In this document: positions 3,448-26,502 of the stretch, one piece after another
Layout: each line of letters begins with the position of its first letter
How positions within the stretch are numbered: the stretch's first letter is position 1
Assembly: GCA_022567655.1 (NCBI GenBank)
Contig: JADFGO010000005.1
Coordinates: forward strand, 1-46,036
DNA from: Candidatus Neomarinimicrobiota bacterium
GTDB lineage: Bacteria; Fidelibacterota; SORT01
Direction: 5' to 3'
DNA: 46,036 bases
Position numbers and translations under genes: made by a program
The notes under the pieces: model-generated
What the model was told of the DNA's origin: nothing
The model's database searches: none
What the model saw: only the letters and a program-made list of their open reading frames with translations

Positions 3448-4002
3448 TTAGTAATCAAACCCCTTTTGGGCGAGGGTTCCCGATTGGTAAGGATGTTTAA
3501 TTTCTTTCATCTCCGTTACCAGGTCGCAAATTTCTATCAGCTCATCGGGCGCGCCCCTGCCCGTAACTATCAGATGCAGCCAAGGCGGTCTCTGCTTTAA
3601 TAACTCGATAGCGTCATCTACCGCTATCAGTCCGGTCTGAATCGCAACGTTGAACTCATCGAGTATTACCATATCGAAGTCGTTTGAGGTTATTTTCTTG
3701 CGTGAAAATTCAAGCGCCTCCGCTGCCGCATTCTTATGTTCCTCTTCCGGTAGTTTATCGTCCACTATTTTGTAAAAACCTAATCCCTTACGGTGAAATT
3801 CAACCTTCGGTTCGAGCTGTTTTATTCCTTCCATCTCTCCGTATTTCCATGAACCTTTAACAAATTGAATGACGCAGATTTTCCAACCGTATCCGACGGC
3901 ACGCAGTATCGTACCGAAAGCCGCTGTGGTTTTTCCCTTTCCCTCACCGGTATAGCAGGCTAAGATTCCATTACGTTTATCTCTATCAGGCGCTTTCATC
4001 AT
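3448..4002 (-). CDS. cobO: Cob(I)yrinic acid a,c-diamide adenosyltransferase (CobO/BtuR type)
   Basis: Transfers the adenosyl group of ATP to reduced corrinoid cobalt, producing adenosylcobalamin or its precursor in the cytoplasm. The 184-aa product has the P-loop GEGKGKTT at 19-26, followed by AAFGTILRAVGYG and VIQFVKG. It also has the VILDEFN segment and the RPPWLHLIVTGRGAP block, all characteristic of the CobA/CobO/BtuR family and of normal length. It starts 3 bases after the nuoN stop, so it is the last gene of the complex I operon. No B12 riboswitch or other corrinoid gene is near. The pairing with respiration genes has no obvious biochemical reason and may just be read-through placement. 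Confidence 0.92.
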   Translation of the reverse strand: MMKAPDRDKRNGILACYTGEGKGKTTAAFGTILRAVGYGWKICVIQFVKGSWKYGEMEGIKQLEPKVEFHRKGLGFYKIVDDKLPEEEHKNAAAEALEFSRKKITSNDFDMVILDEFNVAIQTGLIAVDDAIELLKQRPPWLHLIVTGRGAPDELIEICDLVTEMKEIKHPYQSGTLAQKGFDY

Positions 4003-4005
4003 AGA

Positions 4006-5451
4006 TCAAAAGAGGGTTGTAACCGCATTCTTCGCTATTTCTATGAACCGACCCGGGATAACGCCGAGATAGACTAACCCTAAAGCGCAAATTCCCAATG
4101 CAGCCCGAACACTGAAACTTACAACCACCGGTTCAACATCTCTCTCCCCTTCTTTCATATACATATGTATTATGACCCTCAGATAGTAATAAACGGAAGC
4201 GAGGCTGTTAAGTACGGCGATGATAATCAGCCAGATAAAACCTTCATTCACGGCAGAGTAGAACAGATAAAATTTACCGGTAAACCCGGCTGTCAGCGGG
4301 AATCCCGCGAGTGCGAACATGAAGAGAGCCATAGTCAGAGCGATTACAGGATTCCTTTTCGCCATCCCGGAGTAATCTTCGAACTCCAGCCGGGTTTCCC
4401 CTTTTCCCTCAATGAGTTGTACTACGGTGAAAGCGCCGATATTCATAAAAAGATAACCCAGCAGATAAAACAACGTTCCTCCGGTTGCCGAAACCGAAGC
4501 TGCGGTGATTCCCACCATTATGTAACCGGCGTGCGCTATCGAAGAGTAGGCGAGCATCCGCTTCAGGTTATTTTGTTGCATCGCCAGCACGTTTCCAACT
4601 GTCATTGTTAACACGGTCAAAATCCAGAACAGCGGGGTCCAGTCTATTTCGTCAAGCGGAAATCCATATATCACTATTCGGAGCATCGCCGCAAACGCCG
4701 CTGCTTTTGTCGTTGTTGCCATAAATCCCGTTACAGGAGTGGGCGCGCCCTGATATACGTCAGGCGACCACATATGAAACGGAACGATCGCCACTTTAAA
4801 TCCGATGCCCACGAGTAGAAGACTCATACCGACCAATAAAAATGGAAGACCTGAAGGTGAACCCGCTGCTCTTATTTCAATCAGATTCGTTGTCCCGTAC
4901 GATCCGTATATGAAGGCAATTCCGTAAAGCAGAAATCCCGATGAGAACGCGCCGAGCAGAAGGTACTTGAGCGCCGCTTCGTTCGAGAAGAGCCGTTCCC
5001 TGAAAAAACCCACAAGAATATATAATGAGATCGAAAGAAGCTCCAATCCGAGAAAGATGATGATCAAATCAACTCCCTTCGCCATAAAGAGCATTCCCAC
5101 CGAAGCAAACAGGAGAAGTGAATAATATTCTCCCCTGTGCCACTCCCTGTTGACTAAATATTCTTTCCCCAGAACGACCGTCAGTGCGCCTCCGATCAAT
5201 ACAGTCCCCGCGATGAATTGACTGAACAAATCTGATCGTACCATTCCCCCGAAACCATCTGAAGCTCCACCTCCCATGCTTATCACTAAATAAAATGCGA
5301 GCGCAAAAAAGGCGAACGCCGTCCATTGGTGGATAGCCTTGCGTTCTTTAAGGTAGATCTCCATGAACAGCATCAGTATACCTCCCACGGCGAGCACTAT
5401 CTCGGGAAGGATAACTTCAAAATCGGACGGATTCAGCTGAAATTCAATCAA
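4006..5451 (-). CDS. nuoN: NADH-quinone oxidoreductase subunit N, operon 1
   Basis: Antiporter-like membrane subunit of respiratory complex I that takes part in proton pumping. The 481-aa product is strongly hydrophobic, with about 14 helices. It carries the key lysine in the VAIVPFHMWSPDVYQGAPTPV block, the LELLSISLYIL glutamate segment and LKRMLAYSSIAHAGY. The start appears to be TTG at 5451, 4 bases after the stop of the unknown 191-aa gene, with GGGAATAGG upstream. This copy is separated from nuoM by the antiporter and the unknown gene, whereas in operon 2 nuoM and nuoN are adjacent. It is clearly diverged from the second NuoN at 18986-20473, so the two are not a recent duplication. Confidence 0.95.
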   Translation of the reverse strand: MIEFQLNPSDFEVILPEIVLAVGGILMLFMEIYLKERKAIHQWTAFAFFALAFYLVISMGGGASDGFGGMVRSDLFSQFIAGTVLIGGALTVVLGKEYLVNREWHRGEYYSLLLFASVGMLFMAKGVDLIIIFLGLELLSISLYILVGFFRERLFSNEAALKYLLLGAFSSGFLLYGIAFIYGSYGTTNLIEIRAAGSPSGLPFLLVGMSLLLVGIGFKVAIVPFHMWSPDVYQGAPTPVTGFMATTTKAAAFAAMLRIVIYGFPLDEIDWTPLFWILTVLTMTVGNVLAMQQNNLKRMLAYSSIAHAGYIMVGITAASVSATGGTLFYLLGYLFMNIGAFTVVQLIEGKGETRLEFEDYSGMAKRNPVIALTMALFMFALAGFPLTAGFTGKFYLFYSAVNEGFIWLIIIAVLNSLASVYYYLRVIIHMYMKEGERDVEPVVVSFSVRAALGICALGLVYLGVIPGRFIEIAKNAVTTLF

Positions 5452-5455
5452 GGAC

Positions 5456-6031
5456 CTATTCCCATCCCAACTCTATCTTTCCGAGGTCAACCAGCGGCTC
5501 ATTACCGCATCTCGTGTACAGCTCGAGAATATTGAGAAGATCACCGCTTGCACTGCCTTTTGCATGAATGACATAATCATGCTCGGGAGCATACGCTTCC
5601 GCTCCCTTCGCTTCAGGATGCAATATCTCTTTCGGTTTGTAATCGTCGGAGAGAACAACTCCCTCCGGAAGGTTTTCGAATATCGCCTTCAGCATATTAC
5701 CGTAATTTTCGGCGTAAGCGCTGTATTTAAACTTAAATGAAGCTGAGGTCACACTCCTCCTGGACACGATCTTCAGACGAAGTTTCTCACTCTCTTTGTC
5801 CAAAACCCCCTCAAGTAAACTCAGAGCTGTCTCATCCAAAATAACATGGGTATGCGTAGTAGGCGTGTCGAAGAACACTTTTACTTTCTCAGCAAAAGTA
5901 CTTTTACTGATATTTTGCTCGTTATTGAACAGGATGCGCGAACCTGATTTCGCTCCTATTAATAACCCCCTGACAAACCCTTTTACAAAATTTTCATGTC
6001 CCTCAATTATCAACTCGGTGAGTTTTGACAT
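5456..6031 (-). CDS. Unknown 191-aa protein inside the complex I operon
   Basis: I do not recognise this protein. It starts with a good site, GGAGG and a 4-base spacer before ATG, 11 bases after nhaD, and ends 4 bases before nuoN, so it is almost surely co-translated with complex I. It has no clear signal peptide or membrane helix. The N-terminus contains a glycine-rich GFVRGLLIGAKSGSRILF stretch and the middle has many charged residues, with about 32% D/E/K/R by eye. The C-terminus is acidic, with EPLVDLGKIELGWE. There is no cysteine cluster that would bind Fe-S; only one cysteine is seen. It could be an assembly factor, an accessory subunit or a cytoplasmic partner of the antiporter; nothing in the sequence decides this. 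Confidence 0.8.
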   Translation of the reverse strand: MSKLTELIIEGHENFVKGFVRGLLIGAKSGSRILFNNEQNISKSTFAEKVKVFFDTPTTHTHVILDETALSLLEGVLDKESEKLRLKIVSRRSVTSASFKFKYSAYAENYGNMLKAIFENLPEGVVLSDDYKPKEILHPEAKGAEAYAPEHDYVIHAKGSASGDLLNILELYTRCGNEPLVDLGKIELGWE

Positions 6032-6042
6032 CTTACCTCCTC

Positions 6043-7491
6043 CTAAAAAAATATCAGTGATACAAGAATAAAAATAGGCATTAAAATCAAAATCGAATAT
6101 TTAAACATATAACCGAAAAAACTCGGCATCGGGATGCCTGATTCTTCTGCGATAGACCTGACCATAAAATTGGGAGCGTTTCCTATATAGCTGAGTGCGC
6201 CCATAAATACGGCTCCTGTCGATATCGCCTTGAGATAGATTTCCTTTTCTGCTATCAGTAGCCCGACGGCGGTGGCTTCCGGTATTCCCGCAAAAAAGTT
6301 TCCGAGCGCCGTATTGAAAAACGTCAGATATGTGGGAGCGTTGTCAAGGAAACTCGACAATATTCCCGTCACCCAGAAGAAATCCCGCGGCGTCTTTACC
6401 GATTCTATCAGCCAGGCGAGATTGCCGTTTGCACCCGCTTTCAATATCAAAAGAGCCGGGATTATAGTCATAAATATCCCGGCGAACAGGTAAGCCACTT
6501 CCTTGATCGGAAACCAACTGAACTCATTATCTCCGCGAATCTTAGCGGAAGTAAACTTTATTGAGAGTAAGCCCATCAGAACGATCATACCGTCTCTCAA
6601 CAGGTTCTGCGCTTCCAAGTGCACTCCACTGACGGTGAAAGACGTACCTTTCCACAACCCGCTTTGAAGTACGGCGAGTATTATTCCGCCTAAGAATAAA
6701 AAGTTTATCAGCCCTTCGACTCGCAGCGGCTCGGGGGAAGTCGATACCTCTTCCGGTTTTTTCTCCTTCTTGTAGTAGTATGAGTCGAACAGATAAAATA
6801 TCAGAAGCAGGATCACGACCACAAACATCATATGCGGTAATAATTTAAGCGTCCAGAAAAACGGTACTGAGTGAAGGAATCCCAAAAACAACGGCGGATC
6901 GCCGAGCGGAGTCAGTGAACCTCCGACGTTGCTGACGAGAAAGATAAAAAAGATCACGAGATGCACCTGGTGTTTTCTCCAGCTGTTCGCCCGAAGCAAA
7001 GGTCGGATTAGAAGCATAGATGCTCCGGTTGTTCCGATCCATGACGCTATCAGAGTACCGACTATCAGGATGACGGTGTTTACCGCCGGTGAACCCTGAA
7101 GCTTCCCGCGAATGAGTATGCCTCCTGATGCGACGTATAACCCCCACAGCAAGATTATAAACGGTATATAATCTATCAGATAAATGTGAGATATTTCGTA
7201 GAGCGCATCTCCTTCGTAGACGTAAAGGAACGGAACGGCAAAAAGGAACGCCCACATCGCGGCAATCTTCGGAAAATGTTCATGCCAGAAGTGGGGAACG
7301 AGAAGCGGAAATAGCGCAATTGAAAGCAGGATACCTACAAAGGGAATCATGCTCCAGAGCGGAAGTGAACTTCCCAGTTCGGCGTGCTCTCCCCCGCTTG
7401 ATGCAAAAGATAAAACCGGCATGAACAGGATAATTAAAACGACGGTGGGCACATATCTATTAAAAAAATTATTTATCAAATCCTTCACCAT
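6043..7491 (-). CDS. NhaD-type Na+/H+ antiporter
   Basis: A 482-aa polytopic membrane protein of the ion transporter superfamily, closest by eye to the NhaD/citrate-transporter-like sodium:proton antiporters. An N-terminal hydrophobic segment ending in LSFASSGGEHAELGSS could be a cleaved signal or the first helix. About 11-12 further helices follow. The conserved blocks WIGTTGASMLLIRPLL, NVGGSLTPLGDPPLFLGFL and SSFLDNAPTYLTFFN are the signature of this family, with the second and third forming the ion site. It lies 10 bases after nuoM and 11 before the next gene, inside the nuo operon. An exchange of sodium for protons beside complex I is the likely role. The exact ion is inferred, not seen. 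Confidence 0.85.
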   Translation of the reverse strand: MVKDLINNFFNRYVPTVVLIILFMPVLSFASSGGEHAELGSSLPLWSMIPFVGILLSIALFPLLVPHFWHEHFPKIAAMWAFLFAVPFLYVYEGDALYEISHIYLIDYIPFIILLWGLYVASGGILIRGKLQGSPAVNTVILIVGTLIASWIGTTGASMLLIRPLLRANSWRKHQVHLVIFFIFLVSNVGGSLTPLGDPPLFLGFLHSVPFFWTLKLLPHMMFVVVILLLIFYLFDSYYYKKEKKPEEVSTSPEPLRVEGLINFLFLGGIILAVLQSGLWKGTSFTVSGVHLEAQNLLRDGMIVLMGLLSIKFTSAKIRGDNEFSWFPIKEVAYLFAGIFMTIIPALLILKAGANGNLAWLIESVKTPRDFFWVTGILSSFLDNAPTYLTFFNTALGNFFAGIPEATAVGLLIAEKEIYLKAISTGAVFMGALSYIGNAPNFMVRSIAEESGIPMPSFFGYMFKYSILILMPIFILVSLIFF

Positions 7492-7501
7492 ATTTTTTAA
7501 A

Positions 7502-9046
7502 TTAATTTCTCTCGGGGCTGACCGGAGTTACGTCAGGTGAGATCTCCAAATTATTCCCGTTACCATTTTTCTGGACGATGCTCAACAACCTTGTTACAGA
7601 GGGTTCGATTCTCTCAAGGACGGGTTTTGGATAGACTCCGAGAATGACAATCAGCACTATCATTGGAACTATCACCCATTTCTCCCTCGAGCTAAGATCC
7701 GATAACGTCGAGTTCTTTTCGCTCGTCACCTTTCCGAACATAACCCGCTGATACATCCATAATAGATAAACGGCAGCCAGTATCACACCTGTAGCGGCAA
7801 ACACCGTGAAAAAAATGCTATATTTGAATGCCCCAACCAATATCAGAAATTCTCCTACAAACCCGTTCAATCCGGGAAGTCCGAGACTGCTTAGAACCAC
7901 AATTAAAAATGCAGCGGCGTAAAACGGCATCACTTTCGCCATTCCGCCATAGTCGGAGATCAGACGGGAGTGCCGCCGCTCATAAATAAATCCTACGAGG
8001 ATAAAAAGCGCTCCGGTGCTCAATCCGTGATTGATCATATGCAATATCGCCCCCTGAACTCCCTGCTGGTTCAGGACAAATATCCCCAGAACGACGAATC
8101 CCATGTGCGACACGCTCGAATACGCAACGAGCTTCTTCATGTCCGGCTGGACCATAGCGACCAGCGCCCCGTATATTATGCCGCCGAAAACCGCTAATGT
8201 CAGGATGTAGGGTACCATATCTATCGTCGCATCCGGAAACAGAGGAAGACAAAATCTCAGCAGTCCGTATCCTCCCATCTTCAGAAGTACACCCGCAAGT
8301 ATTACGCTCGCGGCTGTCGGCGCTTCAACGTGGGCATCCGGCAGCCATGTATGAAACGGGAAGAGCGGCACCTTAATGGCGAACGATAAAGCAAAGGCGA
8401 GGAAGAGCCAGAACTGGAGATTATACGGAATGTCCAATTGGTACAACATCAGGAGGTCGGTAGTCGGCTTGCCGAGTTGGTCGCCGCTTATATGATATAA
8501 TACAAATATCCCCACGAGCATTAGCAGGCTGCCGAACATAGTGTAAATTATGAACTTAACAGCCGCATATATTCTATTTTCGCCTCCCCAGATGCCGATG
8601 AGGAAATACATCGGTATCAGCATCACCTCCCAAAAAACGTAAAAAAGAAATAAATCCAGTGATACAAACACACCGATAATACCTATTTCAAGGGTGAGCA
8701 TGCTTATTAAAAAACCCTTAAGACTCTGTGTGATCGAGTTCCATGAAGAAAGAAGCGCTATAGGAGTGAGCAGAGTGGTTATCATTATCAGAAACAAGCT
8801 TATCCCATCGATACCTACTTTGTAGGATATGCCCCATGCCGGAATCCACGCCGTCTGTTCAACAAACTGCATTCCGGACGGACCTATCTCGAATCGGAAA
8901 AACATGACTATGGAGGCAATTAGCGTGGCGACCGAAAACAGCATCGCTGTAACTTTCAGAAGCGTATTATCGTTCTTGGGAAGCGCTAAGAGGATAATTA
9001 CGCCTGCAAAGGGTATCAGAAGATGTAATGAGAGTAAACCGGTCAT
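7502..9046 (-). CDS. nuoM: NADH-quinone oxidoreductase subunit M, operon 1
   Basis: Antiporter-like proton-pumping subunit of complex I. The 514-aa product has the FWEVMLIPMYFLIGIWGG segment with the transmembrane glutamate, and FAIKVPLFPFHTWLPDAHVEAPT with the essential lysine. It also has KKLVAYSSVSHMGFVVLG, all in standard order. About 14 helices are expected. The C-terminal tail after the last helix is longer than in the operon 2 copy and polar (NGNGNNLEISPDVTPVSPERN). It starts 3 bases after nuoL and is followed by the antiporter gene instead of nuoN. Confidence 0.96.
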   Translation of the reverse strand: MTGLLSLHLLIPFAGVIILLALPKNDNTLLKVTAMLFSVATLIASIVMFFRFEIGPSGMQFVEQTAWIPAWGISYKVGIDGISLFLIMITTLLTPIALLSSWNSITQSLKGFLISMLTLEIGIIGVFVSLDLFLFYVFWEVMLIPMYFLIGIWGGENRIYAAVKFIIYTMFGSLLMLVGIFVLYHISGDQLGKPTTDLLMLYQLDIPYNLQFWLFLAFALSFAIKVPLFPFHTWLPDAHVEAPTAASVILAGVLLKMGGYGLLRFCLPLFPDATIDMVPYILTLAVFGGIIYGALVAMVQPDMKKLVAYSSVSHMGFVVLGIFVLNQQGVQGAILHMINHGLSTGALFILVGFIYERRHSRLISDYGGMAKVMPFYAAAFLIVVLSSLGLPGLNGFVGEFLILVGAFKYSIFFTVFAATGVILAAVYLLWMYQRVMFGKVTSEKNSTLSDLSSREKWVIVPMIVLIVILGVYPKPVLERIEPSVTRLLSIVQKNGNGNNLEISPDVTPVSPERN

Positions 9047-9049
9047 CCC

Positions 9050-10972
9050 CTACCTTAATATGAAGTAACCTATCATTAGTAGCCCGCCTATAAATATTGA
9101 CAGCGCATAGTTCTGAACGAGCCCCGATTGAGTTTTCCTTAGATACCTGCCGCCGATAATCAGTAATTTGCCTGACGAGTTAACTAACCCGTCAATCACG
9201 ATCACGTCAAAGCTTCTCCAGAGCCACCGAGCAACTTTTACGGTTGTGCGCACGAACAGAAAATCGTACAGCTCATCCACGTAATACTTATTATTCAGCA
9301 ATTTGTAGATACGCTGGAATTTACCCGCCAACTTCCGGGGAAGCTCCGGGCTTTTTACGTAAAAGATGTAGGCTATAGTTATTCCCGCAACAGCGATCAG
9401 CACCGAGACCGCCATGAGGATATACTCTTCCATCGTGCTGTGTGCGACACCGCCTGCCGACGGCAGCTGAGCGAGATTCGCCTCCAAAAAATGGTGAAGT
9501 TTGTTACTGCCACCGAGCAGAGCGGGCACACCGATGTAACCGCCCGCAACCGATAACAGCGCTAAGATCATGAGAGGGATGGTCATGACACCCGGAGATT
9601 CATGCGGGTGCGTTCCCTCTTTCCATCTCGACTCGCCGAAAAATGTAAGGAATATCAACCGGAAGATATAAAACGCCGTCAACCCCGCAGCCGCAGCGCC
9701 GATTATCCAGAGCCAGAAGCCGCCGGCAGGGGAGCTGTACGCCTGCCACAATATCTCGTCCTTGCTGAAAAAACCGGACAACCCGGGAATTCCCGAAAGG
9801 GCGAGCGCTCCTGCTAAAAAAGTGATGTACGTTTTCGGAATCTCCTTCCTCAATCCGCCCATATGGTTCATGTTCTGTTCGTTCGAGAGAGCATGCATGA
9901 CGGAGCCGGCGGCGAGAAACATCAGACCCTTGAAAAAAGCATGAGTAAGCAGATGGAACATTCCCGCAGTGAACGCGCCCACTCCTAATGCTAAAAACAT
10001 GTAGCCGAGCTGGCTGATAGTTGAATACGCAAGAACCTTTTTTATGTCATTTTGCGTGAGAGCGATGGAAGCGGCATAGATTGCGGTGAGCGCGCCGACA
10101 ACGGCGATCAGAGTCATTGACGCCGGAGCTAATACATAGAGAAAACTACTGCGCGCCACCATGTAAACGCCGGCAGTAACCATCGTTGCTGCATGAATGA
10201 GCGCGCTCACCGGAGTCGGACCTGCCATAGCGTCGGGCAGCCAGACGTACAACGGTATCTGCGCTGATTTACCCACCGCACCCATGAACAACAAAAGCGT
10301 TATCGCAGTGATAACCCCGTCGCCTGTCTCATAACCCCCCAGCTGAGAAAAGATCTCGCTGAACGTGAAACTACCGAAGGTGGTGAACAGAAGCAGAATT
10401 CCTATCAGAAAACCGAAATCCCCTATCCTGTTGACGATGAACGCCTTTTTCCCGGCGCTTGCGTTCGCCTCATCCTCATACCAGAATCCTATCAACAAAT
10501 ATGAACAGAGACCCACACCCTCCCATCCGAGAAACATCAAGACGTAATTATCCGCTAAAACAAGGTTGAGCATCATGAACGTAAAGAGGTTCATATACGC
10601 AAAAAATCTCGCAAAACCCTTGTCGCCGCTCATGTATCCGATAGAATATACGTGAATGAGAAATGCCACTCCGGTGACCATAACCGCCATTAATAGAGAA
10701 AGCGAATCTATCTGATAGCTGAAGCTCAATTGCAAATCACCAACGGGAATCCATGTGAAGAGCAGGGCATGAAACTCCGCGCCCTCCTGGTGTAGATTCA
10801 AGTACTTGACGAGTAAAACGACCGAAGTGACGAATGATAAGAATATAACGGCTGAGCCCACAATCCCGACTCCTCTAACTCCCAATCGCTTTCCGTATAA
10901 GCCGTTCAGCAGGAACCCGATAAGCGGGAACAGAGGTATCCACCACACTAAATCAGTGATTGTCTCTACCAT
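9050..10972 (-). CDS. nuoL: NADH-quinone oxidoreductase subunit L, operon 1
   Basis: Distal antiporter-like subunit of complex I with the long lateral helix. The 640-aa product shows [18 protein letters not shown] (conserved glutamate) and [37 protein letters not shown]. It also has [16 protein letters not shown], and a C-terminal amphipathic region ending [17 protein letters not shown]. Length is normal for NuoL. The C-terminal [16 protein letters not shown] element occurs once here but twice in the operon 2 copy. It overlaps the nuoK end by 7 bases, which fits coupled translation. Confidence 0.96.
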
Positions 10973-11268
10973 TTCAGTAAATTCATCTCGTCGATATTTA
11001 TCGATTCCTTGTTCCTGTACACCGCTACTATTATCGCCAATCCGACGGCTACTTCGGCGGCTGCGAGCGTCATAACGAAGAAAACGATCAACTGTCCGTC
11101 GACGTTATTCAGATATCTCGAAAATGCTATCAGCGTCAAATTAACAGCGTTGAGCATCAACTCGATCGACATGAATACCACTATAACATTTCTTCTCACA
11201 AGCACACCGACCACGCCGATAGAAAACAGGAGCGCACCCAACACTAACGAATATTCTAACGGTATCAT
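10966..11268 (-). CDS. nuoK: NADH-quinone oxidoreductase subunit K, operon 1
   Basis: Small membrane subunit (100 aa, three helices) forming part of the proton path next to NuoJ and NuoN. It has the two conserved membrane glutamates, in [11 protein letters not shown] and in [18 protein letters not shown]. Length is the family norm. Its ATG overlaps the nuoJ stop as TGATG and its 3' end overlaps nuoL, so it is embedded in a coupled series. Confidence 0.95.
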
Positions 11269-11771
11269 CAGCGTAAAGTCCTTTTAGCCAAAAGCACGGC
11301 TCCGACAAGCGCTACAAGCAGCAGTAGTGACGCTATCTCGAACGGCAGCAAATAGTCTGTGAACAACGATAAACCGATACTTTTCGTCCCTCCAAGCTCT
11401 CCGACGCTTTCAGCGCCGTTTTGAAAGAAACTCACCGAGTCGGAAATGAGCGTAGCCATCATCCCGGCAAAGGTCATCGACAGAAACGAGATCAGTAATA
11501 TTCGGGGATTGGAAATTGATAGAAACTTCGCCTCGCGTTCGAGGTTCAACAGCATGATGACGAATAAGAACAGAACCATTATGGCTCCTGCATAAACTAT
11601 GATCTGTACAACGGCGAGGAAGTATGCTTCGAGCAGCAGGAAAATTCCTGCGAGACAAAAGAGCGTAACAACAAGAAAAAGAGCGCTGTAAATAGGATTC
11701 CGGCTGATTACTACCATCAGCGCCGAAGCTACCGCCAGAAAAGCCAATATGAAGAACAACGTCGTTGTCAT
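11268..11771 (-). CDS. nuoJ: NADH-quinone oxidoreductase subunit J, operon 1
   Basis: Membrane subunit of complex I with five predicted helices (167 aa). The conserved [24 protein letters not shown] helix contains the pi-bulge region, and the tail [17 protein letters not shown] is typical. It follows nuoH by 18 bases. In 14-subunit operons nuoI normally lies between nuoH and nuoJ. There is no room for it here. Confidence 0.95.
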
Positions 11772-11789
11772 GCTCTTCTCTCCCTCAAC

Positions 11790-12806
11790 TCAGCGCACAT
11801 ACGTAATCCATGCGGCTGTCAGAATCAGATTTAACAGGGCTAACGGCAAAAGGACCTTCCATCCGAGATGCATTAACTGGTCGTAACGAAAACGCGGAAG
11901 CGTCCAGCGCACCCATAAATATAGAAAAAGGAAGAACGCTGTCTTAAACGCAAAGGAGAGGACGGAAATAAACGCTCCGAGTCCGCCTAATGCAGCCTCA
12001 TCTACGAACGGTACGTCCCATCCGCCGAAAAAGAGCGTAACTATCAAAGCGGACGCCGTAATTACGTTCGAGTATTCACCCATCATAAACATCGAATATT
12101 TAAAACCGCTGTACTCGGTGTGATAACCCGCAACAAGCTCCTGTTCGGCCTCAGCCAAATCAAAAGGCAGCCGGTTTGTCTCGGCAAAGATCGCCGTGAT
12201 GAAAACAATGAACGCTAACGGCTGTTTGACAATGTTCCACATTCCGAGCTGGGAGTCAACGATATCATTCAATCGAAGTGAACCCGTAATCAGGATTATG
12301 CCTATTACCGAAAGACCGAGAGCTATCTCATAGGAAATCATCTGCGCTGAAGAACGCAGTCCCCCGAGGAGTGAATACTTGTTGTTGGAACTCCATCCCC
12401 CTAAAACTACCCCGTAGACACCTATGGAAGTAATGGCAAAGATCAACAATATTCCGATGTTAATATCCACAACCTGGAATTTTATATGTCTTCCGAACGC
12501 CTCTATGCCCGTGCCGAACGGAATCACCGAGAAGGTCATCAATGCGGGTGCGAGCACCATCGCCGGAGCCAGAGTGTGTATCAGACTATCGGCTCTGGCG
12601 GGTGTGATATCTTCCTTTAACAAAGTCTTGATTCCGTCCGCTATCGGCTGCAAAAGTCCGAATGGACCAACCCTGTTCGGTCCGTGCCGTTCCTGTATAA
12701 ATCCCGCTACCTTCCTCTCGGCAAGGATAAGATAAGCGATGGTAAGCATAAGCGCTCCGATTACGATAACAATTTTGACCAGAATTATCGTTACATCCAA
12801 CAGCAT
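11790..12806 (-). CDS. nuoH: NADH-quinone oxidoreductase subunit H, operon 1
   Basis: Membrane subunit that forms the quinone chamber with NuoB and NuoD. The 338-aa product has the AERKVAGFIQERHGPNRVGPFGLLQPIADGIK segment and TNRLPFDLAEAEQELVAGYHTEYSG with the acidic quinone-site loop. The C-terminal WVRWTLPRFRYDQLM is also typical. Its ATG overlaps the nuoG stop (TGATG). HGPNRVGPFGLLQ is the usual proteobacterial-type form, unlike the LGPMEVGGWHGWLQ of the operon 2 copy, so the two NuoH come from different lineages of complex I. Confidence 0.96.
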   Translation of the reverse strand: MLLDVTIILVKIVIVIGALMLTIAYLILAERKVAGFIQERHGPNRVGPFGLLQPIADGIKTLLKEDITPARADSLIHTLAPAMVLAPALMTFSVIPFGTGIEAFGRHIKFQVVDINIGILLIFAITSIGVYGVVLGGWSSNNKYSLLGGLRSSAQMISYEIALGLSVIGIILITGSLRLNDIVDSQLGMWNIVKQPLAFIVFITAIFAETNRLPFDLAEAEQELVAGYHTEYSGFKYSMFMMGEYSNVITASALIVTLFFGGWDVPFVDEAALGGLGAFISVLSFAFKTAFFLFLYLWVRWTLPRFRYDQLMHLGWKVLLPLALLNLILTAAWITYVR

Positions 12807-14446
12807 CAGGCTAATACCTTTTTATTCTCTTCTTCTTCGAAATCAAGATTTATACCGGCTGAGCCTACAGCTTCAGTAGAGCACCCTTCATATCCCGGAA
12901 TGCTTGAAGCAATTTCAGTTGTAATTTCATCAACATTTTCAAACTCGATCCCTTCACAACCTATAGAGTTCGCAAATTCCAATATCACTTTCCAATCCTC
13001 TCTCGTTCCAACAGGCGGTACGACCGCCTGATTTATTTTCTGCACTCTCCTCCGGTCGTTTGTCATCGTTCCGCTCTTTTCGTAGTGCATCGTACCGGGC
13101 AGAACAAGGTCAGCAAGCTTTGCCGCATCGGAAAGGTAAGTTGACTGGACGATGACGAAGTCGGCGTTGTTCAATATTTCAAGCATACTTTCGTTCATCA
13201 CGTCGTATAATCCGCCTTGAAGCATATAAATGATCGAAACTCTTCCGTTTGATAGATCGCCCGGAGTCATGGTATTATCTACGCGCAGCATATCTATCGC
13301 TCCGGTTCTATTCGGAGTCTTGTCAGGTGAGATTCTGAACCCGCTTTTAAATATGATCGGATCTCCCTCCATCTCAGCCGGATATAAGCCTATATTCGAA
13401 GCGGGAACCGACATGCTCTCGACAATTTTTCGCAGGAGATAATTCTCTTCGTTCGTGCAGTATGGAGAACCGATCAATGCGAACTCACTTGCGTTAAACC
13501 CTTCTTTTGAGATGACGTTCTCCCGTATAACTTCAAAAGCTTCAGTCCAGGAAATCGGATCAAAACCGTTTTCCCCCTTCAGCAGCGGGGATTGCAGCCG
13601 TTCTACTTTTTCTGCGGCATGATAACCGAGCCTCCCGTCATCACACATCCAATAATCGTTCACATCTTTATTGTAACGGGGTTTTATCCGTTGAATCTCA
13701 TTGTTTGAAACTCCTATCTCCACGTTGCAGCCGACCGAACAATCCATGCAAACAGTGTCGTGTTCTTTCAAATTCCAGACTCGTGTCTTATGAAGAAAAT
13801 CGTTGCTTACCAGACTGCCGACAGGGCAGATATCGGCCGTATTCCCCGACAGCTTGTTATCTATCGGTTGGCCGTCGCGAACGTCTATGATGGAGCTGTA
13901 ACCTCTGTTCCGCACAATCAGCTGCGGGTCACCGACAATTTCGTCACAAAATCGAATACACCTCGAACAGAGAACGCATCGGTTGGGATAAATCCATATT
14001 TCGTCTCCAAGCCGCTTCTTCGGATTCACCCTCTTTTCTTCTTTAAAGCGGCTGTGGGCGTTGCCATGCAGATAAGAGTAGTCCTGAAGATAACATTCAC
14101 CCGCCTGATCGCATACGGGACAGTCTAAAGGGTGGTTCAAAAGAAGAAGTTCGAGCACCCTGCTACGGGCGTCCTTGACCTCTTCGGATTCACTGTTGAC
14201 CACCATATCGTAACTTCCATCCACTTTTCTCTCTTCGGGAAGCTCGTTTATTGTAACGTTACAGGATATTTGAAGTCCCGGCATCCCCTCTACTTCCACG
14301 CAGCACATCCGGCAGTTGCCTGCGATGGAGAGACTCGGATGATAACAATAATGCGGTATATCAAAACCCTCGTCCAACGCCACCTGAAGCAATCTCGCTC
14401 CGTTCTCTACTTCGATCTCTTTATCGTTCAGTTTAATCAGTGGCAT
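12806..14446 (-). CDS. nuoG: NADH-quinone oxidoreductase subunit G, operon 1 (short form)
   Basis: Fe-S subunit of the NADH module. The 546-aa protein begins with a 2Fe-2S ferredoxin domain (C34, C45, C48, C62; N1b). The N5 site follows with a histidine ligand (H105, C109, C112, C118), then N4 (C157, C160, C163, C207). The off-path N7 motif C-x2-C-x3-C-x27-C is present at C233, C236, C240 and C268. The molybdopterin-oxidoreductase-like domain that follows is short, so the whole is well below the roughly 780-900 aa of Thermus and E. coli NuoG. The extreme C-terminus is acidic. It sits between nuoF (12-base gap) and nuoH (overlap). The cluster set is complete, so it should be functional. Confidence 0.94.
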   Translation of the reverse strand: MPLIKLNDKEIEVENGARLLQVALDEGFDIPHYCYHPSLSIAGNCRMCCVEVEGMPGLQISCNVTINELPEERKVDGSYDMVVNSESEEVKDARSRVLELLLLNHPLDCPVCDQAGECYLQDYSYLHGNAHSRFKEEKRVNPKKRLGDEIWIYPNRCVLCSRCIRFCDEIVGDPQLIVRNRGYSSIIDVRDGQPIDNKLSGNTADICPVGSLVSNDFLHKTRVWNLKEHDTVCMDCSVGCNVEIGVSNNEIQRIKPRYNKDVNDYWMCDDGRLGYHAAEKVERLQSPLLKGENGFDPISWTEAFEVIRENVISKEGFNASEFALIGSPYCTNEENYLLRKIVESMSVPASNIGLYPAEMEGDPIIFKSGFRISPDKTPNRTGAIDMLRVDNTMTPGDLSNGRVSIIYMLQGGLYDVMNESMLEILNNADFVIVQSTYLSDAAKLADLVLPGTMHYEKSGTMTNDRRRVQKINQAVVPPVGTREDWKVILEFANSIGCEGIEFENVDEITTEIASSIPGYEGCSTEAVGSAGINLDFEEEENKKVLA

Positions 14447-14458
14447 TTCAAGCCGAAC

Positions 14459-15751
14459 CTAATTCGCGACAATGTCGCTTTTCTCATTTTCCTGCACCAT
14501 CGATTTTTTATTCTCCACGTAGTAATCGAATTCTTCACGGAATTTATCAATATAACTTTTAACCGGCGCTACCGCAGCGTCTCCAAAGGGGCAGATAGTT
14601 TTTCTTTCGATGCTTTTACAGATGTCGAGTAGAAGGTCTATGTCGCGCCTGCCTCCCTTTCCATTCGTAATTCTACCGAGAATCATCGTCATCCACGGCA
14701 CACCTTCCCGGCACGGAGTACATTGGCCGCATGACTCATGAGCGTAAAACCTCGAGAGGTTATAACACGCATCAACCATATCGGTCTGCTCGTCCATAAC
14801 TATAATTCCCGCCGAACCGAGCATACTCCCTGCTGCTGCGACTGAATCGAAATCCATGGCTATATCTATCTCGTCGGCTTTAAGCACCGAAGTCGAAGAA
14901 CCGCCCGGAATGACAGCCTTCAGTTTCCTGTTGTGCAGGACTCCGCCCGCATGCTCGAATATCAGTTCTTTTAAGGGCGTTCCCATGGGAAGCTCGAACA
15001 CTCCCGGATTTCGGACATGCCCTGAAACACAGTATAATTTTGGTCCTGAACTCATCTCGGTACCGATAGATTTGAACCAATCAGCGCCCCGGGAGATAAT
15101 ATGCGGAACACAGCAGAGCGTCTCAACGTTGTTTACGATTGTCGGCGAATTTAGATAACCCGCGACCGCCGGAAACGGAGGTTTAATACGGGGGTAACCG
15201 CGTTTACCTTCTAAGGATGTCAGCAGTGCCGTCTCTTCGCCGCAGATATACGCGCCGGCTCCCCGCGTAATAATAATATCGAGGTCGTAGCCGCTCGAAA
15301 GAATATTTTTCCCGAGGAATCCTTTTTCTTTCATCTCCTCTATCGCTTCGTTGAGAATCAGCGTTTGAGCGGCAAACTCGCCCCGGATGTATATAAACGC
15401 CGTATTCGCTCCGATGGCGTAAGATGCGATGGCGATCCCCTCGAGCATCATATGCGGATCGTTATCAAGAATAAGCCTGTCTTTGAAAGTACCCGGTTCC
15501 GATTCATCGGCATTGCACACGAGATATTTCAGCTTATCGGTCTCTTTGGGAACGAAGCCCCACTTTACACCTGCCGGGAATCCGGCGCCGCCCCTTCCCC
15601 TTAAGCCGGAATTTTTCACTATGTCTGTCACTTCATCGGGGGAAAGGTCGTTCAATACTGTTTTGAGCGCTTCATATCCGCCCGAAGCAATGTACGCGCT
15701 TATTCTATGAGAATTCTCAACCGCTATATTTCTCGTGAGGATCTTTTCCAT
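14459..15751 (-). CDS. nuoF: NADH-quinone oxidoreductase subunit F, operon 1
   Basis: NADH- and FMN-binding subunit, where NADH is oxidised. The 430-aa protein has the FMN motif GRGGAGFP at 52-59, NADESEPGTFKDR, and the GAGAYICGEETALL block for NADH. The N3 4Fe-4S site is at C341, C344, C347 and C387 (CGQCTPCREG and TICPFGD). I chose the ATG at 15751, which overlaps the nuoE stop as TGATG; a TTG one codon upstream (TTGA) is also possible and would add a single residue. It lies directly between nuoE and nuoG. No counterpart exists in operon 2. Confidence 0.96.
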   Translation of the reverse strand: MEKILTRNIAVENSHRISAYIASGGYEALKTVLNDLSPDEVTDIVKNSGLRGRGGAGFPAGVKWGFVPKETDKLKYLVCNADESEPGTFKDRLILDNDPHMMLEGIAIASYAIGANTAFIYIRGEFAAQTLILNEAIEEMKEKGFLGKNILSSGYDLDIIITRGAGAYICGEETALLTSLEGKRGYPRIKPPFPAVAGYLNSPTIVNNVETLCCVPHIISRGADWFKSIGTEMSSGPKLYCVSGHVRNPGVFELPMGTPLKELIFEHAGGVLHNRKLKAVIPGGSSTSVLKADEIDIAMDFDSVAAAGSMLGSAGIIVMDEQTDMVDACYNLSRFYAHESCGQCTPCREGVPWMTMILGRITNGKGGRRDIDLLLDICKSIERKTICPFGDAAVAPVKSYIDKFREEFDYYVENKKSMVQENEKSDIVAN

Positions 15752-16224
15752 CAATCGAACCTGCCGAGAATTTTATCGATCTTTTGGTTATCGAGATTTT
15801 CATGGTACTCATCATTTACCTGCATCATGGGCGCAGTGTCACACGACGCCAAACATTCCGCCTTGAGAAGTGTGAATCTGTTATCTTTTGTGGATTCCCC
15901 CACTTCGACATCGAGTTTACTCTTAAGGTAATCGAGTATGCCGGCTGAACCTCTCAACGCGCACGGCAGCGTATGGCAAACCCATATGACGTTCCTTCCC
16001 ACCGGTTCCTTGAAGTACATCGTGTAAAAACTTGCAGTGTCCTCGAGCTGCTGAACGGGGATTTCCATCTCTCTCGAGAGCGATTCGAGAGCTTCATGAG
16101 AGATATAACCAAACTCCTTTTGCGTCAGATGCAAGGCGTTCATCACAGCGGAATTCTTGTCCGGGTAAGAATCGACAAGCTTCTTGAGTTCGGCTTTGGA
16201 CTCTTCTGAAAATTCAGTCGGCAT
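15751..16224 (-). CDS. nuoE: NADH-quinone oxidoreductase subunit E, operon 1
   Basis: Thioredoxin-fold 2Fe-2S subunit of the NADH module (cluster N1a). The 157-aa protein has the four ligands in the usual spacing, C83 and C88 (CHTLPC) and C124 and C128 (ECLASC). An N-terminal helical part of about 60 residues precedes them. The ATG overlaps the nuoD stop (TAATG) and the stop overlaps nuoF, so stoichiometric expression of D, E and F is likely. Confidence 0.95.
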   Translation of the reverse strand: MPTEFSEESKAELKKLVDSYPDKNSAVMNALHLTQKEFGYISHEALESLSREMEIPVQQLEDTASFYTMYFKEPVGRNVIWVCHTLPCALRGSAGILDYLKSKLDVEVGESTKDNRFTLLKAECLASCDTAPMMQVNDEYHENLDNQKIDKILGRFD

Positions 16225-17423
16225 TATCTGTCGAGTTCCCCTGCTATTATGTTCAGAGAGCCGAGGTTAGCGACGGTATCGGAAAACATTGCTCCGGTCA
16301 TTATTTTTTTGAATATTGTATAGTTAATGAACGATGGCGGTCTTACCCGCACTCGGTATGGCTCTCTCCCGCCGTTTGAAACGATAAAAAATCCTAACTC
16401 TCCGCTCGGTGATTCCGTCCCCAAGTAAACTTCGCCGACAGGAGGAAGTATCCCCCGGTTTTCCATAGTTACTTCAAAATGATGTATCAGTCCCTCAATC
16501 GTAGTGTAAACTTCGTCTTTCCCCGGCAGAGTGATTTTGGAATCGGGGTCTATGTTTACATCACCGCCGGGAAGGTTTTTTAACACCTGCTCGCATATTT
16601 TAATCGACTGCCGGAGCTCCTCCATCCGGACCAAATACCGGTCAAACGCATCTCCGTTCTCCCCTATCGGCACTTCAAATTCGAACTCCTCATACGAAGA
16701 GTATGGAATGTCCTTTCTCAAGTCATATTTCACGCCGGAAGCACGGGCTATCGGACCCGTAAGACTGTATTTGGTGACGTCTTCCTTCGAAATTACGCCG
16801 ACGTCATAGGTTCTGTCCTGGAAGATCCGGTTATGATTGAGAAGCTTTTCGATCTCGTCGATGGTTTTGGGGAATTGCCTCATCCACTTCAAGACCGCAT
16901 CAGGAAAATCTTCAGGAAGGTCAGCCATTAGTCCGCCCACACGCGTATAACTCGTGGTCAGGCGCGCGCCCGTTGCCCACTCAAAAAGGTCATAAAGTTT
17001 CTCCCTTTCCCTGAACCCGTACAGAAAAACAGTCAGGGCTCCGAGGTCCATAGCAGCCGTTCCGATAGCGAGGAGATGGTCGGCGATTCTTGAAAGTTCC
17101 GCCATCAGTACACGGATATACTGCCCGCGTTTAGGGATTTCTATCCCGAAAAGCTTTTCCGCAGCAAGGGAAAATGCGATATTGTTCGACAACGGTGAAA
17201 GATAGTTCATTCTGTCGGTAACCGTAACAAACTGATTATAGGACATGTGTTCGGCGAGTTTTTCGAATCCGGTATGCAGGAATCCGATATGCGGTTCCAC
17301 GCTGACAACCTTCTCTCCGTCTAATTCCATCACCAGTTGGAGTGTACCGTGTGTAGCGGGGTGCTGAGGTCCGAAACTGAGCTGCAGCGTTTCGCTCGGT
17401 AGCTCCTTCTCTACCCTAATCAC
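16224..17423 (-). CDS. nuoD: NADH-quinone oxidoreductase subunit D, operon 1
   Basis: 49-kDa-type subunit that forms the quinone site. The 399-aa protein starts with [20 protein letters not shown], holding the conserved quinone-loop histidine. It has the tyrosine in TDRMNYLSPLSNN and ends GSLNIIAGELDR as usual. NuoC is separate, not fused. The start is GTG at 17423, immediately after the nuoC stop. Its quinone-site residues are intact, so the enzyme should reduce quinone provided a NuoB partner is supplied. Confidence 0.96.
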   Translation of the reverse strand: MIRVEKELPSETLQLSFGPQHPATHGTLQLVMELDGEKVVSVEPHIGFLHTGFEKLAEHMSYNQFVTVTDRMNYLSPLSNNIAFSLAAEKLFGIEIPKRGQYIRVLMAELSRIADHLLAIGTAAMDLGALTVFLYGFREREKLYDLFEWATGARLTTSYTRVGGLMADLPEDFPDAVLKWMRQFPKTIDEIEKLLNHNRIFQDRTYDVGVISKEDVTKYSLTGPIARASGVKYDLRKDIPYSSYEEFEFEVPIGENGDAFDRYLVRMEELRQSIKICEQVLKNLPGGDVNIDPDSKITLPGKDEVYTTIEGLIHHFEVTMENRGILPPVGEVYLGTESPSGELGFFIVSNGGREPYRVRVRPPSFINYTIFKKIMTGAMFSDTVANLGSLNIIAGELDR

Positions 17424-17948
17424 TCAGTAACGCTCTCTTTCACGCTTTACAATCTTGAACGAGTCTCTCTCGCCTCTCCCCTTCAACGGGTAATCCTTCC
17501 TGAGCGGGTGTCCCTCATAATCATCGGGCATCAAAATTCGCCGCAGGTTCGGGTGACCCTTGAATTTCACTCCAAACAGGTCCCAGACTTCCCTTTCGAG
17601 CCATTCCGCACAACTCCATATGCCGGCGACCGAATCAATTATCACATCATCATCAAGAAACGCTTTAACGATCAACATGTTCATATTTTCAAGGTTTCTT
17701 AAGACGTATACAACCGCAAATCTGGCTGCCGCTTCCATCTGAAGGTAATCTACTGCCGTGAGATCGGTTAAAAATTCGAATTTCAATTCCGGATCGGTGC
17801 GGCAGAAATTCAGTATCTCTATGATATTGCCGCTTCTTACGCTGACCGCGTCTTTGTTTATGGGGTTCTCGTCTTCAATTACCTCTCCGGGAAACTTCGC
17901 TTTGATTCTATCGAATATATCATTCTTGCTGTAGGGCTTATCAGGCAT
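17424..17948 (-). CDS. nuoC: NADH-quinone oxidoreductase subunit C, operon 1
   Basis: 30-kDa-type peripheral-arm subunit. The 174-aa protein carries the family signature EREVWDLFGVKFKGHPNLRRILMPDDYEGHPLRKDYPL. The frame extends to 17984, but that would run into nuoA. The ATG at 17948 lies one base after the nuoA stop and has GAGTGGG upstream, and it gives a standard N-terminus (MPDKPYSK). In normal operons nuoB sits between nuoA and nuoC; here the join is direct. Confidence 0.95.
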   Translation of the reverse strand: MPDKPYSKNDIFDRIKAKFPGEVIEDENPINKDAVSVRSGNIIEILNFCRTDPELKFEFLTDLTAVDYLQMEAAARFAVVYVLRNLENMNMLIVKAFLDDDVIIDSVAGIWSCAEWLEREVWDLFGVKFKGHPNLRRILMPDDYEGHPLRKDYPLKGRGERDSFKIVKRERERY

Positions 17949-17949
17949 T

Positions 17950-18315
17950 TCAATCCCACTCAAGAGCGCCCATCTTCCACACATAAATCAATCCTACTAA
18001 AAGAATGCCGAGAAAGGTAACCATTTCGATGAAGATAAAATCCCCGAACTCGAGGAGATCTTTAAACACTATTGCCCACGGATACATGAAGATTAACTCT
18101 ATGTCAAAAATTATGAATATGATGGCTATAATAAAATATTTTATGGAAAACCTCAGGCGCGCAGATGATTCAGGAGCTATGCCCGATTCGTAAGGTTCTA
18201 AGTCTACTTCGGAACGGCGTTTCGGCTGCAGTAACTTCGACAAAAAGAGCATGGAAGCTACTAACACGAAAACTATGATCATGAGAAAAAGTAACGGTAA
18301 ATATTCCGATAACAT
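17950..18315 (-). CDS. nuoA: NADH-quinone oxidoreductase subunit A, operon 1
   Basis: Membrane subunit with three helices (121 aa). It has the LEPYESGIAPESSARLRFSIKYFIIAIIFIIFDIELIFMYPWA core of the family, with the acidic residues of the quinone channel. Its ATG overlaps the stop of the upstream thioesterase gene (TAATG), which places the thioesterase in the same transcript. Confidence 0.95.
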   Translation of the reverse strand: MLSEYLPLLFLMIIVFVLVASMLFLSKLLQPKRRSEVDLEPYESGIAPESSARLRFSIKYFIIAIIFIIFDIELIFMYPWAIVFKDLLEFGDFIFIEMVTFLGILLVGLIYVWKMGALEWD

Positions 18316-18985: not shown

Positions 18986-20473
18986 TCAGTGTCCCAGAAG
19001 GAGCTTTAGCGAGGCTTGAGTAAAGTCGGAAAGCGGCGCCCAGTAAACGCCTAATAAAAGTACAGGAACGGCAAGAAACCCGACAACTACCAAAGGAGTC
19101 TTTGAGAGAGGTTTCTCAGCCTCAGACGGTTCGCCGCGCATGAAGAGCGCACGGAGCACCCTAGCATAATAATACAGCGACACCACACTGTTCAAGGCAC
19201 CTACGATAGCGAGCCAATAGTAAGCCGAACCTCCCTTAAGAAGGGCGGCGAACAGATAGAATTTTCCGATGAAACCGATAGTCGGCGGTATCCCGGCAAG
19301 GGAAAGCAGGAATATGCCCATGCATACCGACAGATAGGGAGCTTTAAAAACGAGACCGTTATATTCGTCTATCTCCTCCGTACCGAACCGGTCGGCAATG
19401 TTTAGAACGACAAAAAACGCTCCGAGATTCATGAGATAGTAAGCCGCAAGATAAAACATCATGGCGAACAGTCCGTCCTGAGTGAGAACAACAATACCCA
19501 TCAGAACGTAGCCGGCATGAGCGATACTCGAATAAGCGAGAAGCCGTTTTACGTTGTTCTGCTGCAAAGCGACTAAGTTTCCAAGTGTCATCGTAATAGC
19601 CGAGATCCACATCATTATCTGCGGCCAGTTGAGCTGCTCGATCGCGTACCAATTCGACATGTTCACATTGTTCTCAGAAACGAATGCTGTGTTGAAGAAT
19701 CGGATCAAGAGAGCGAAACCGGCAGCTTTAGGACCGACAGAGAGAAACGCAGTAAATGCGGTCGGTGACCCTTCGTACACGTCCGGAGCCCAGAAATGGA
19801 ACGGCACCGACGCTATCTTATACCCGAATCCGGCGAGGATCATCAGGAAGGAAATAAGCACCGTCAGATTGCCCGCTTCACCCTGCGACAAAACCTCCCC
19901 TATGCCCGATATGTCCAGCGTGCCGGTGAGTCCGTATAATAACGAAAAACCGTACAGCATGATCCCCGAGGTGACGCCGCCGTAGATCACATACTTCAAC
20001 GCAGCCTCGCTTGACCGTCTCGATTCTTTGAGATATCCCGCAACTACGTATGAGGTAACACTGACCAGTTCGAGCGCTAAATACGCCGTCAGGAGATTTG
20101 TGGCGGACGCCATCAAAAACATCCCAAGAGTAATCGTCAATATCAACGCGTTGAACTCGCCGTGGGATCTTCCTTTCATTTCTAATGACGAGGAGGAGAT
20201 CAGCAGAACAAAAAAGGCTGTAATTACAAATAAAAATTTAAAATAAAACGAAAACGGATCGAGCGCGAGCATACCGGAAAAAAGACTCGTCGGCACATTA
20301 GAGTAGGAAGATATCAGCGCTATCATGGTAATGACAAGCCCGACTCCGGCTACAAATACAGTGTAGACCGATTCATCCTTCTTGAGAAACAGGTCATAGA
20401 TGATGAGGACCAATATCGTTGTTGTCAACGTCAGCTCGGGAATAAAGAGATTGAGGCTGCTGATATTATCCAT
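18986..20473 (-). CDS. nuoN: NADH-quinone oxidoreductase subunit N, operon 2
   Basis: Antiporter-like pump subunit (495 aa). It has the LALELVSVTSYVVAGYL glutamate segment, GYKIASVPFHFWAPDVYEGSPTAFTAFLSVGPKAAGF with the key lysine, and VKRLLAYSSIAHAGYVL. The VGPKAAGF form is common in Bacteroidetes and Chlorobi NuoN. It starts 15 bases after the nuoM stop and is the last gene of operon 2. It shares layout but only moderate similarity with the operon 1 copy. Confidence 0.96.
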   Translation of the reverse strand: MDNISSLNLFIPELTLTTTILVLIIYDLFLKKDESVYTVFVAGVGLVITMIALISSYSNVPTSLFSGMLALDPFSFYFKFLFVITAFFVLLISSSSLEMKGRSHGEFNALILTITLGMFLMASATNLLTAYLALELVSVTSYVVAGYLKESRRSSEAALKYVIYGGVTSGIMLYGFSLLYGLTGTLDISGIGEVLSQGEAGNLTVLISFLMILAGFGYKIASVPFHFWAPDVYEGSPTAFTAFLSVGPKAAGFALLIRFFNTAFVSENNVNMSNWYAIEQLNWPQIMMWISAITMTLGNLVALQQNNVKRLLAYSSIAHAGYVLMGIVVLTQDGLFAMMFYLAAYYLMNLGAFFVVLNIADRFGTEEIDEYNGLVFKAPYLSVCMGIFLLSLAGIPPTIGFIGKFYLFAALLKGGSAYYWLAIVGALNSVVSLYYYARVLRALFMRGEPSEAEKPLSKTPLVVVGFLAVPVLLLGVYWAPLSDFTQASLKLLLGH

Positions 20474-20488
20474 TATACAACAAATTCC

Positions 20489-21991
20489 CTATTGAGCCGC
20501 CATTGTTGCGCCCGACTTCACCATCTCTATAATACCGTTCATCGTTTCGGACATCATCCCGAGAATAGGCATCGGATAAAAACCGAGAATGATGACTATA
20601 ATCGCCAACGGTACGAGCGTGAACAGCTCCCTGCCGTTGATCTCCGACAATCCCGCCCATTTCTCGTTCAGCTTGCCCAGGAATATCTTCTGGTACGCCC
20701 ACAAGAAATATGCGGCATTCAGGACTATGCCCGTCAGGGCAAGACCTGTTATCCACCGGAAGGTGGTCGTATTATGCTCTGCGCCGAACCCTCCGATAAG
20801 AGTGAGCGCTTCGCTGATAAACCCGGAAAAACCGGGTAGTCCGAGTCCCGCAAAAAACGCTAATGCAACAATTCCCGCGTATATCGGCATCCTGACCGCC
20901 AATCCCCCGAATCCATCAATATCGCGTATGTGCGTCCTGTCGTATATCACTCCGACCAGAAGGAACAACATTGCGGTAATCGTTCCATGATTGAACATTT
21001 GAAGCACTGCTCCGTTCATTCCGGCGGTGGTCAGAGCTGCCATTCCGATAAGGCAGAAACCCATGTGGCTTATACTCGAATACGCCACCAGCTTCTTGAG
21101 ATCCGTCTGAGCCAAGGCGCAAAGAGCTCCGTAGACGATGTTTATAAGACCCAGCACCGCGAGAGGCACAGCGAACCAGAGGGTGGCGTCAGAAAGTATC
21201 GGATAATTTATTCTCAGCAGGCCGTATATCCCCATCTTCAACAGGACACCTGCAAGAATAACGCTGACTGCGGTCGGCGCTTCGACATGAGCGTCCGGCA
21301 GCCAGGTGTGGAACGGGAAGATAGGCACCTTTATGGCAAACCCTATGAACAGCGCTAAAAACACCCATATTTGGAAGTTGTAGTCATACGTAGTTTGCAT
21401 CAGCTTGAGCATGTTGAACGTGTGCTGACCGTCATAAAAATAGAGCGCAAGCATGGCAAGGAGTATTAATACACTGCCGAGCAACGTGTACAGGAAGAAC
21501 TTAATCGCTGCGTACTCTCTGCGGGGACCGCCCCAGACACCGATCAGGAAATACATCGGAAGAAGCATTACTTCCCAGAAGATAAAGAATAAGAAAAAGT
21601 CTATGGAGACAAAGACACCTATCATACCCGCGTCAAGAAGCAAAAAGAGAGCAAAATATCCCTTCACAGCCTTTTCGATATTCCATGAGGCAAATATGCA
21701 GATAAAGGAAAGCAACGCAGTCAGCATGATCATCGGCGCACTCAATCCGTCCACTCCCATATAATATTCGATGTTAAAAGCGGGAATCCAACTGTAGTGT
21801 TCGACGAACTGCATCGCCGAGGTAGTCCTGTCGAATATCAGGAAGAGCTGGACAGCAAGCCAGAGCTGTATGCCCGTAGTTACAGCTGCAATGACCTTTA
21901 TAATGTAACTTTTATCCCGCGGTATAAGTAAAATCACCACCATCCCGAGAACCGGAATAAAGGTTAGCGCTGAAAGTAAATAACTTTGCAT
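20489..21991 (-). CDS. nuoM: NADH-quinone oxidoreductase subunit M, operon 2
   Basis: Antiporter-like pump subunit (500 aa) with FWEVMLLPMYFLIGVWGGPRREYAA, FAIKVPIFPFHTWLPDAHVEAPTAV and LKKLVAYSSISHMGF. The essential glutamate and lysine are present. It is similar to the operon 1 NuoM through the core but differs at both ends. It starts 18 bases after nuoL. Confidence 0.96.
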   Translation of the reverse strand: MQSYLLSALTFIPVLGMVVILLIPRDKSYIIKVIAAVTTGIQLWLAVQLFLIFDRTTSAMQFVEHYSWIPAFNIEYYMGVDGLSAPMIMLTALLSFICIFASWNIEKAVKGYFALFLLLDAGMIGVFVSIDFFLFFIFWEVMLLPMYFLIGVWGGPRREYAAIKFFLYTLLGSVLILLAMLALYFYDGQHTFNMLKLMQTTYDYNFQIWVFLALFIGFAIKVPIFPFHTWLPDAHVEAPTAVSVILAGVLLKMGIYGLLRINYPILSDATLWFAVPLAVLGLINIVYGALCALAQTDLKKLVAYSSISHMGFCLIGMAALTTAGMNGAVLQMFNHGTITAMLFLLVGVIYDRTHIRDIDGFGGLAVRMPIYAGIVALAFFAGLGLPGFSGFISEALTLIGGFGAEHNTTTFRWITGLALTGIVLNAAYFLWAYQKIFLGKLNEKWAGLSEINGRELFTLVPLAIIVIILGFYPMPILGMMSETMNGIIEMVKSGATMAAQ

Positions 21992-22009
21992 ATTATGAAT
22001 AAGCCTCCA

Positions 22010-24852: not shown

Positions 24853-24861
24853 TAGGGAATA

Positions 24862-26501: not shown

Positions 26502-26502
26502 A

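Follow-up and report, generated by a model that had tools for sequence, protein, structure and literature searches.

What a transporter gene and a gene of an undescribed family are doing inside a complex I operon is the question raised by the window, by which we mean the whole stretch of 46,036 nucleotides from a Candidatus Neomarinimicrobiota genome (G000; 2.14 Mb in 150 contigs) that was analysed. The two genes stand between nuoM and nuoN of the first of two nuo operons. The relevant features, in window coordinates, are as follows.

3448-4002, minus strand: CobO-type ATP:corrinoid adenosyltransferase (PF02572, 7e-61), 3 bases past nuoN
4006-5451, minus strand: nuoN of operon 1 (481 aa; Proton_antipo_M match), the downstream flank of the insertion
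5456-6031, minus strand: 191-aa protein, the transporter's partner, from an undescribed family and with a predicted tandem ferredoxin/ACT-like fold
6043-7491, minus strand: CitMHS_2 (PF16980) transporter, a probable NhaE/NhaD-like Na+/H+ antiporter (482 aa; PF16980 7.8e-185, PF03600 1.3e-8)
7502-9046, minus strand: nuoM of operon 1 (514 aa; Proton_antipo_M 2.7e-83), the upstream flank of the insertion
9050-18315, minus strand: the remaining nuo genes of operon 1 (L, K, J, H, G, F, E, D, C and A), without nuoB and nuoI
37653-39083: sodium:solute symporter (PF00474)

The intergenic gaps from nuoM through the transporter gene and the 191-aa gene to nuoN are 10, 11 and 4 bases, confirming the order and spacing reported in the initial annotation. 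Its observation that operon 2 (18986-29086) has no such insertion was also correct, as nuoN2 and nuoM2 are 15 bases apart with no gene between them. The two inserted genes had further been described as co-translated with complex I; the tight spacing behind that description is real, but the closely spaced genes are better described as probably co-transcribed with nuo. Terminator-like patterns in the region numbered 10, versus 6.0 +/- 2.9 in shuffled sequences, and were not clearly above chance.

In a Pfam profile search the transporter scored 615 bits against PF16980 (curated cut-off 25.7), while its match to PF03600 (CitMHS) was weak. A search of the NCBIfam library gave it no match, and PDB sequence searches with the transporter and the 191-aa protein as queries returned nothing usable. 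The AlphaFold model of the transporter (pLDDT 80.6) had its best PDB fold matches in yeast Pho90, INDY, NaDC3, VcINDY and ArsB, with TM-scores of about 0.4-0.55, and the protein is thus predicted to have an IT-superfamily (DASS/INDY/ArsB-like) fold. Four polar motifs, G153-T-T-G, N188-x-G-G-x-L-T-P-L-G-D198-P, S379-S-F-L-D383-N384-A-P-T387 and Y435-I-G-N438-A-P-N441, show almost no variation across an alignment of 84 relatives and are expected to lie within the membrane in two re-entrant hairpins.

With the NhaD proteins of Vibrio (TC 2.A.62) the window protein shares the IT superfamily and conserved intramembrane Asp/Asn/Thr motifs; it differs from them in its best family, PF16980, and in having no NCBIfam model match. 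The initial label "NhaD-type" holds only loosely, at the level of the superfamily. The NhaE family, known from Rhodothermus marinus and Neisseria meningitidis, is placed beside NhaD in the IT superfamily (PMC9408914). NhaE (TC 2.A.111) is likewise an IT-superfamily Na+/H+ antiporter, and the window protein is likened to it by description. We infer both the activity and the Na+ substrate, and regard Na+/H+ antiport of the NhaE kind as the probable role of the transporter. Other families of the phylum have a second PF16980 subfamily, distant from this one at about 44% identity (L031-L043, L167, L168, L172, and L173), and the gene that follows it encodes a conserved protein of 130 aa that lacks a Pfam match.

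The gene order is not peculiar to the window. Its closest named relatives, Candidatus Marinimicrobia MT.SAG.3 and MT.SAG.2 (L044 and L058), have the same order with a transporter about 80% identical, and their 191-aa sequences are those of two of the genomes of the window's family (G003 and G004). All five genomes of that family (G000-G004) have nuoM-transporter-191aa-nuoN, with gaps of -29 to 22 bases. A chance insertion, which the initial annotation had named as the outcome that would undo its proposal, is therefore refuted and the linkage to an NADH dehydrogenase is conserved.

Across the phylum, 160 of 245 genomes have a PF16980 protein above the cut-off, and linkage was surveyed in the 126 with listed main-type transporter copies. 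In 69 of these nqrB lies no more than 9 kb upstream on the same strand (median distance 5.6 kb), with nqrCDEF-apbE between it and the transporter (annotated examples read nqrBCDEF-apbE-transporter), and 11 further genomes have apbE or nqr genes upstream. The totals, summed by hand, are about 80 of 126 genomes linked to nqr and 27 of 126 linked to nuo; copies outside these totals are at contig ends or have a neighbourhood outside the survey, and that of G050 is linked to neither. A genome search did not find nqrB in the five genomes of the window's family or in G051 and G109.

The nuo-linked copies occupy several positions. Eleven genomes of another family (G059, G216-G225) have nuoM-transporter-UspA-nuoN, and in most of them nuoM and the transporter gene overlap by 4 bases; the order also occurs in a Poribacteria genome (L053). 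The transporter lies between nuoM and nuoN without a second gene in G051, G182, and G183. In G103 it precedes nuoN at the start of a contig, in G114, G123, G184, G186, and G187 it follows nuoN, and in G010 it follows the second nuo cluster. The antiporter is behind Na+-NQR in most of the phylum and is therefore a partner of the NADH dehydrogenase generally rather than a part of complex I. The initial proposal of a tie between antiporter and complex I thus survives as a conserved linkage, in a broader form in which complex I is the less frequent partner.

To these counts we can add a tree of 93 transporter sequences, built by a quick method only and with the group of nuoM/nuoN-inserted copies named before the tree was seen. 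On this tree the nuo or nqr label requires seven changes and the nuoM/nuoN position five, and a single clade of all the inserted copies was rejected (p-AU 1e-67). The genome G189 (L237) has nuoM-nuoN-apbE-antiporter-UspA where its sibling (L141) has nqrBCDEF-apbE-antiporter-UspA, and the two antiporters group together. Based on these changes and on this grouping, the antiporter is the stable element and it is the neighbouring dehydrogenase that varies, whether by a swap, by relocation of the antiporter or by transfer of the whole cluster. At the G189 site, which has no nqr genes, nuoN and the antiporter are separated by apbE, the gene of a flavin transferase that as a rule accompanies Nqr. Replacement of Na+-NQR by canonical complex I in several Marinimicrobia lineages, with transfer of the cluster, has been described (Getz et al., 2018; PMC6143742), and the main text of that paper makes no mention of an antiporter.

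This kind of arrangement is already known from Rhodothermus. In R. marinus, nhaD and pcd are reportedly found among the complex I (nqo) genes, where they are said to lie between nqo13 (nuoM) and nqo14 (nuoN) and to be co-transcribed with them. The window has its probable antiporter gene in the same place, and in both clusters the complex I genes are accompanied by such a gene and by one further small gene. The second genes differ, that of R. marinus encoding a homolog of pterin-4a-carbinolamine dehydratase (PCD) and that of the window a member of an undescribed family without a Pfam match; R. marinus also belongs to a different phylum, and the likeness is one of cluster description. What is added here is the window's second gene, the linkage to one or the other dehydrogenase throughout the phylum and the finding that nuo-linked copies belong to separate lineages.

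The explanation we favor, and consider reasonably probable, is that an IT-superfamily Na+/H+ antiporter expressed from the main NADH:quinone oxidoreductase operon exchanges ion gradients, with the 191-aa protein as its dedicated partner. Such an antiporter would let the cell exchange the gradient made by its NADH:quinone oxidoreductase for a gradient of the other ion. Behind complex I it would spend the proton gradient to expel Na+, this being the direction we infer, and behind Na+-NQR, its usual position in the phylum, it would turn sodium and proton gradients into one another. The antiporter would then be what probably couples the sodium circuit to the proton circuit when the main NADH dehydrogenase changes, and its constancy may explain how an exchange between Na+-NQR and complex I is tolerated.

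As to the use of a sodium gradient, the ATP-synthase c-subunit of the window's genome has AALIEGVAFF in helix 2 and no Gln at the ligand place of helix 1. The helix-1 Gln is what we take to be the Na+ motif of c-subunits, and on that assumption this subunit does not appear to be specific for sodium. The c-subunit, with no recognizable Na+ motif, gave no support to a sodium-driven ATP synthase, and for the same reason any sodium gradient that is made would be used for homeostasis and secondary uptake, not for making ATP. The sodium:solute symporter listed above is encoded in the same window.

We also considered that the transporter might carry anions or citrate and be tied to respiration only through common regulation, which we regard as unlikely. 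The Pfam name of its family is "putative citrate transport", its fold neighbors include dicarboxylate, phosphate and arsenite transporters, and two of 24 family members weakly match a sodium:anion symporter (DASS) model, all of which would suit such a carrier. Against it stands the constant linkage to NADH dehydrogenases that pump sodium or protons. In addition, the R. marinus gene located in the complex I cluster, likened to PF16980 by description, was named as that of a Na+/H+ antiporter (Melo et al., 2005; BBA 1709:95-103). The NhaE of R. marinus, likened to PF16980 in the same way, has been tested as a Na+/H+ antiporter (PMC9408914).

It is very improbable, in our estimation, that the linkage is positional only, reflecting a shared and highly expressed housekeeping operon without any functional connection to the dehydrogenase. 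Housekeeping genes of unrelated function (cobalamin adenosyltransferase, ispH and dxs) do recur in these neighborhoods, as this explanation would have it. However, what several separate lineages have within their run of nuo genes is the antiporter together with its partner gene, and the antiporter remains where the adjoining dehydrogenase differs. The CobO-type gene 3' of nuoN is itself a conserved neighbor, at the equivalent place in genomes of families f1 and f18. Two non-homologous ATP:cobalamin adenosyltransferases share this equivalent place behind the antiporter or nuoN, the CobO type in families f1, f18, and f16 and the PduO type in f11, f17, f28, f29 and others.

The 191-aa protein had been described as belonging to no known family, and it indeed has no Pfam, NCBIfam or PDB sequence match. 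Matches to DUF7757, PAS_8 and NMB0537_N (E 0.03-0.08) were each seen in one of 22 members, below the cut-off, and were rejected; a lead to NMB0537 and NhaE of Neisseria, which rested on the name, was dropped together with the NMB0537_N match. An AlphaFold (AF2) model from 22 sequences (pLDDT 88.9) has two ferredoxin-like domains. The best Foldseek matches of this model (1u8s, 2nyi and 2f1f; E 1e-4 to 9e-4) are tandem ACT proteins, including a GcvR-like repressor and the regulatory subunit of acetohydroxyacid synthase, with TM-scores of only 0.29-0.46, and given these low values the predicted "ACT-like" assignment denotes a fold class and not a function. A viral fold search with the protein gave nothing at E <= 0.001.

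A search with the family's own profile found it in 30 genomes (two of them centers reached through the transporter), and in 28 of these it adjoins the antiporter: six of seven in the window's phylum, all six in the phylum to which L118 (a Syntrophaceae record) belongs, and 16 of 17 in that of L049, whose near twin L050 is labeled Spirochaetota. Within flanks of about 1.5 kb, nuo is directly adjacent to the 191-aa gene only in the five genomes of the window's family among the 30. The protein accompanies the antiporter even in genomes in which both lie away from nuo, and it is therefore an accessory of the antiporter and not of complex I. The suggestion in the initial annotation that it may be an accessory factor was thus sound, with the antiporter rather than complex I as the partner. 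The 191-aa gene lies away from the antiporter in two genomes, G050 (L138) and G659 (L196).

The simplest reading is that the 191-aa protein is probably a cytosolic regulator of the antiporter. As a dedicated partner it would probably sense a ligand or state through its two ferredoxin/ACT-like domains. In sister operons its slot is taken by proteins that match UspA (PF00582), a match absent from the 191-aa protein and from 21 aligned relatives. The UspA protein TeaD is thought to regulate the transporter TeaABC (PMC5549992), which offers a parallel in that a small soluble protein is encoded with a transporter; the 191-aa protein differs from TeaD in that it is not UspA by sequence or predicted fold. 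These observations give a first functional lead for an undescribed family present in several bacterial phyla.

The same distribution bears on whether the antiporter and the 191-aa protein could be physical extra subunits of complex I at NuoM-NuoN that turn it into a redox-driven Na+ pump, which we consider very improbable. The use of the nuoM/nuoN slot in several separate lineages and the tight spacing, suggestive of linked expression, are consistent with extra subunits, and complex I of R. marinus has been proposed to carry out Na+/H+ antiport (cited in PMC5662883). Yet the antiporter is elsewhere linked to an unrelated enzyme, Na+-NQR, or lies behind nuoN, and the 191-aa protein pairs with it in other phyla with no nuo nearby. 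NuoM and NuoN of operon 1, read by eye, also keep the Glu and Lys residues that we take to be those usual for proton pumping. Also very improbable is that the two proteins dock on the dehydrogenase, be it complex I or Na+-NQR, as an exchangeable ion-conversion module, in which case the complex I of this lineage would be a redox-driven sodium pump.

Several further features of the two operons were noted. For the nuoB and nuoI missing from operon 1 (4006-18315), second copies are found on another contig of the genome (G000:C28), separate from each other (L219, 5080-5580 and 8060-8587). Operon 2 encodes a complex I that has A, B, C, D, H, I, J, K, L, M, and N but lacks NuoE, F, and G. It matches the second complex I, devoid of the NADH subunits, that Getz et al. 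(2018; PMC6143742) call "nNDH". Its NuoL2 (679 aa, 22010-24049) has an internal repeat close to the C-terminus, DDTIIDGAVNGTASVTVW / DDNIVDGAVNGTGSVTAF.
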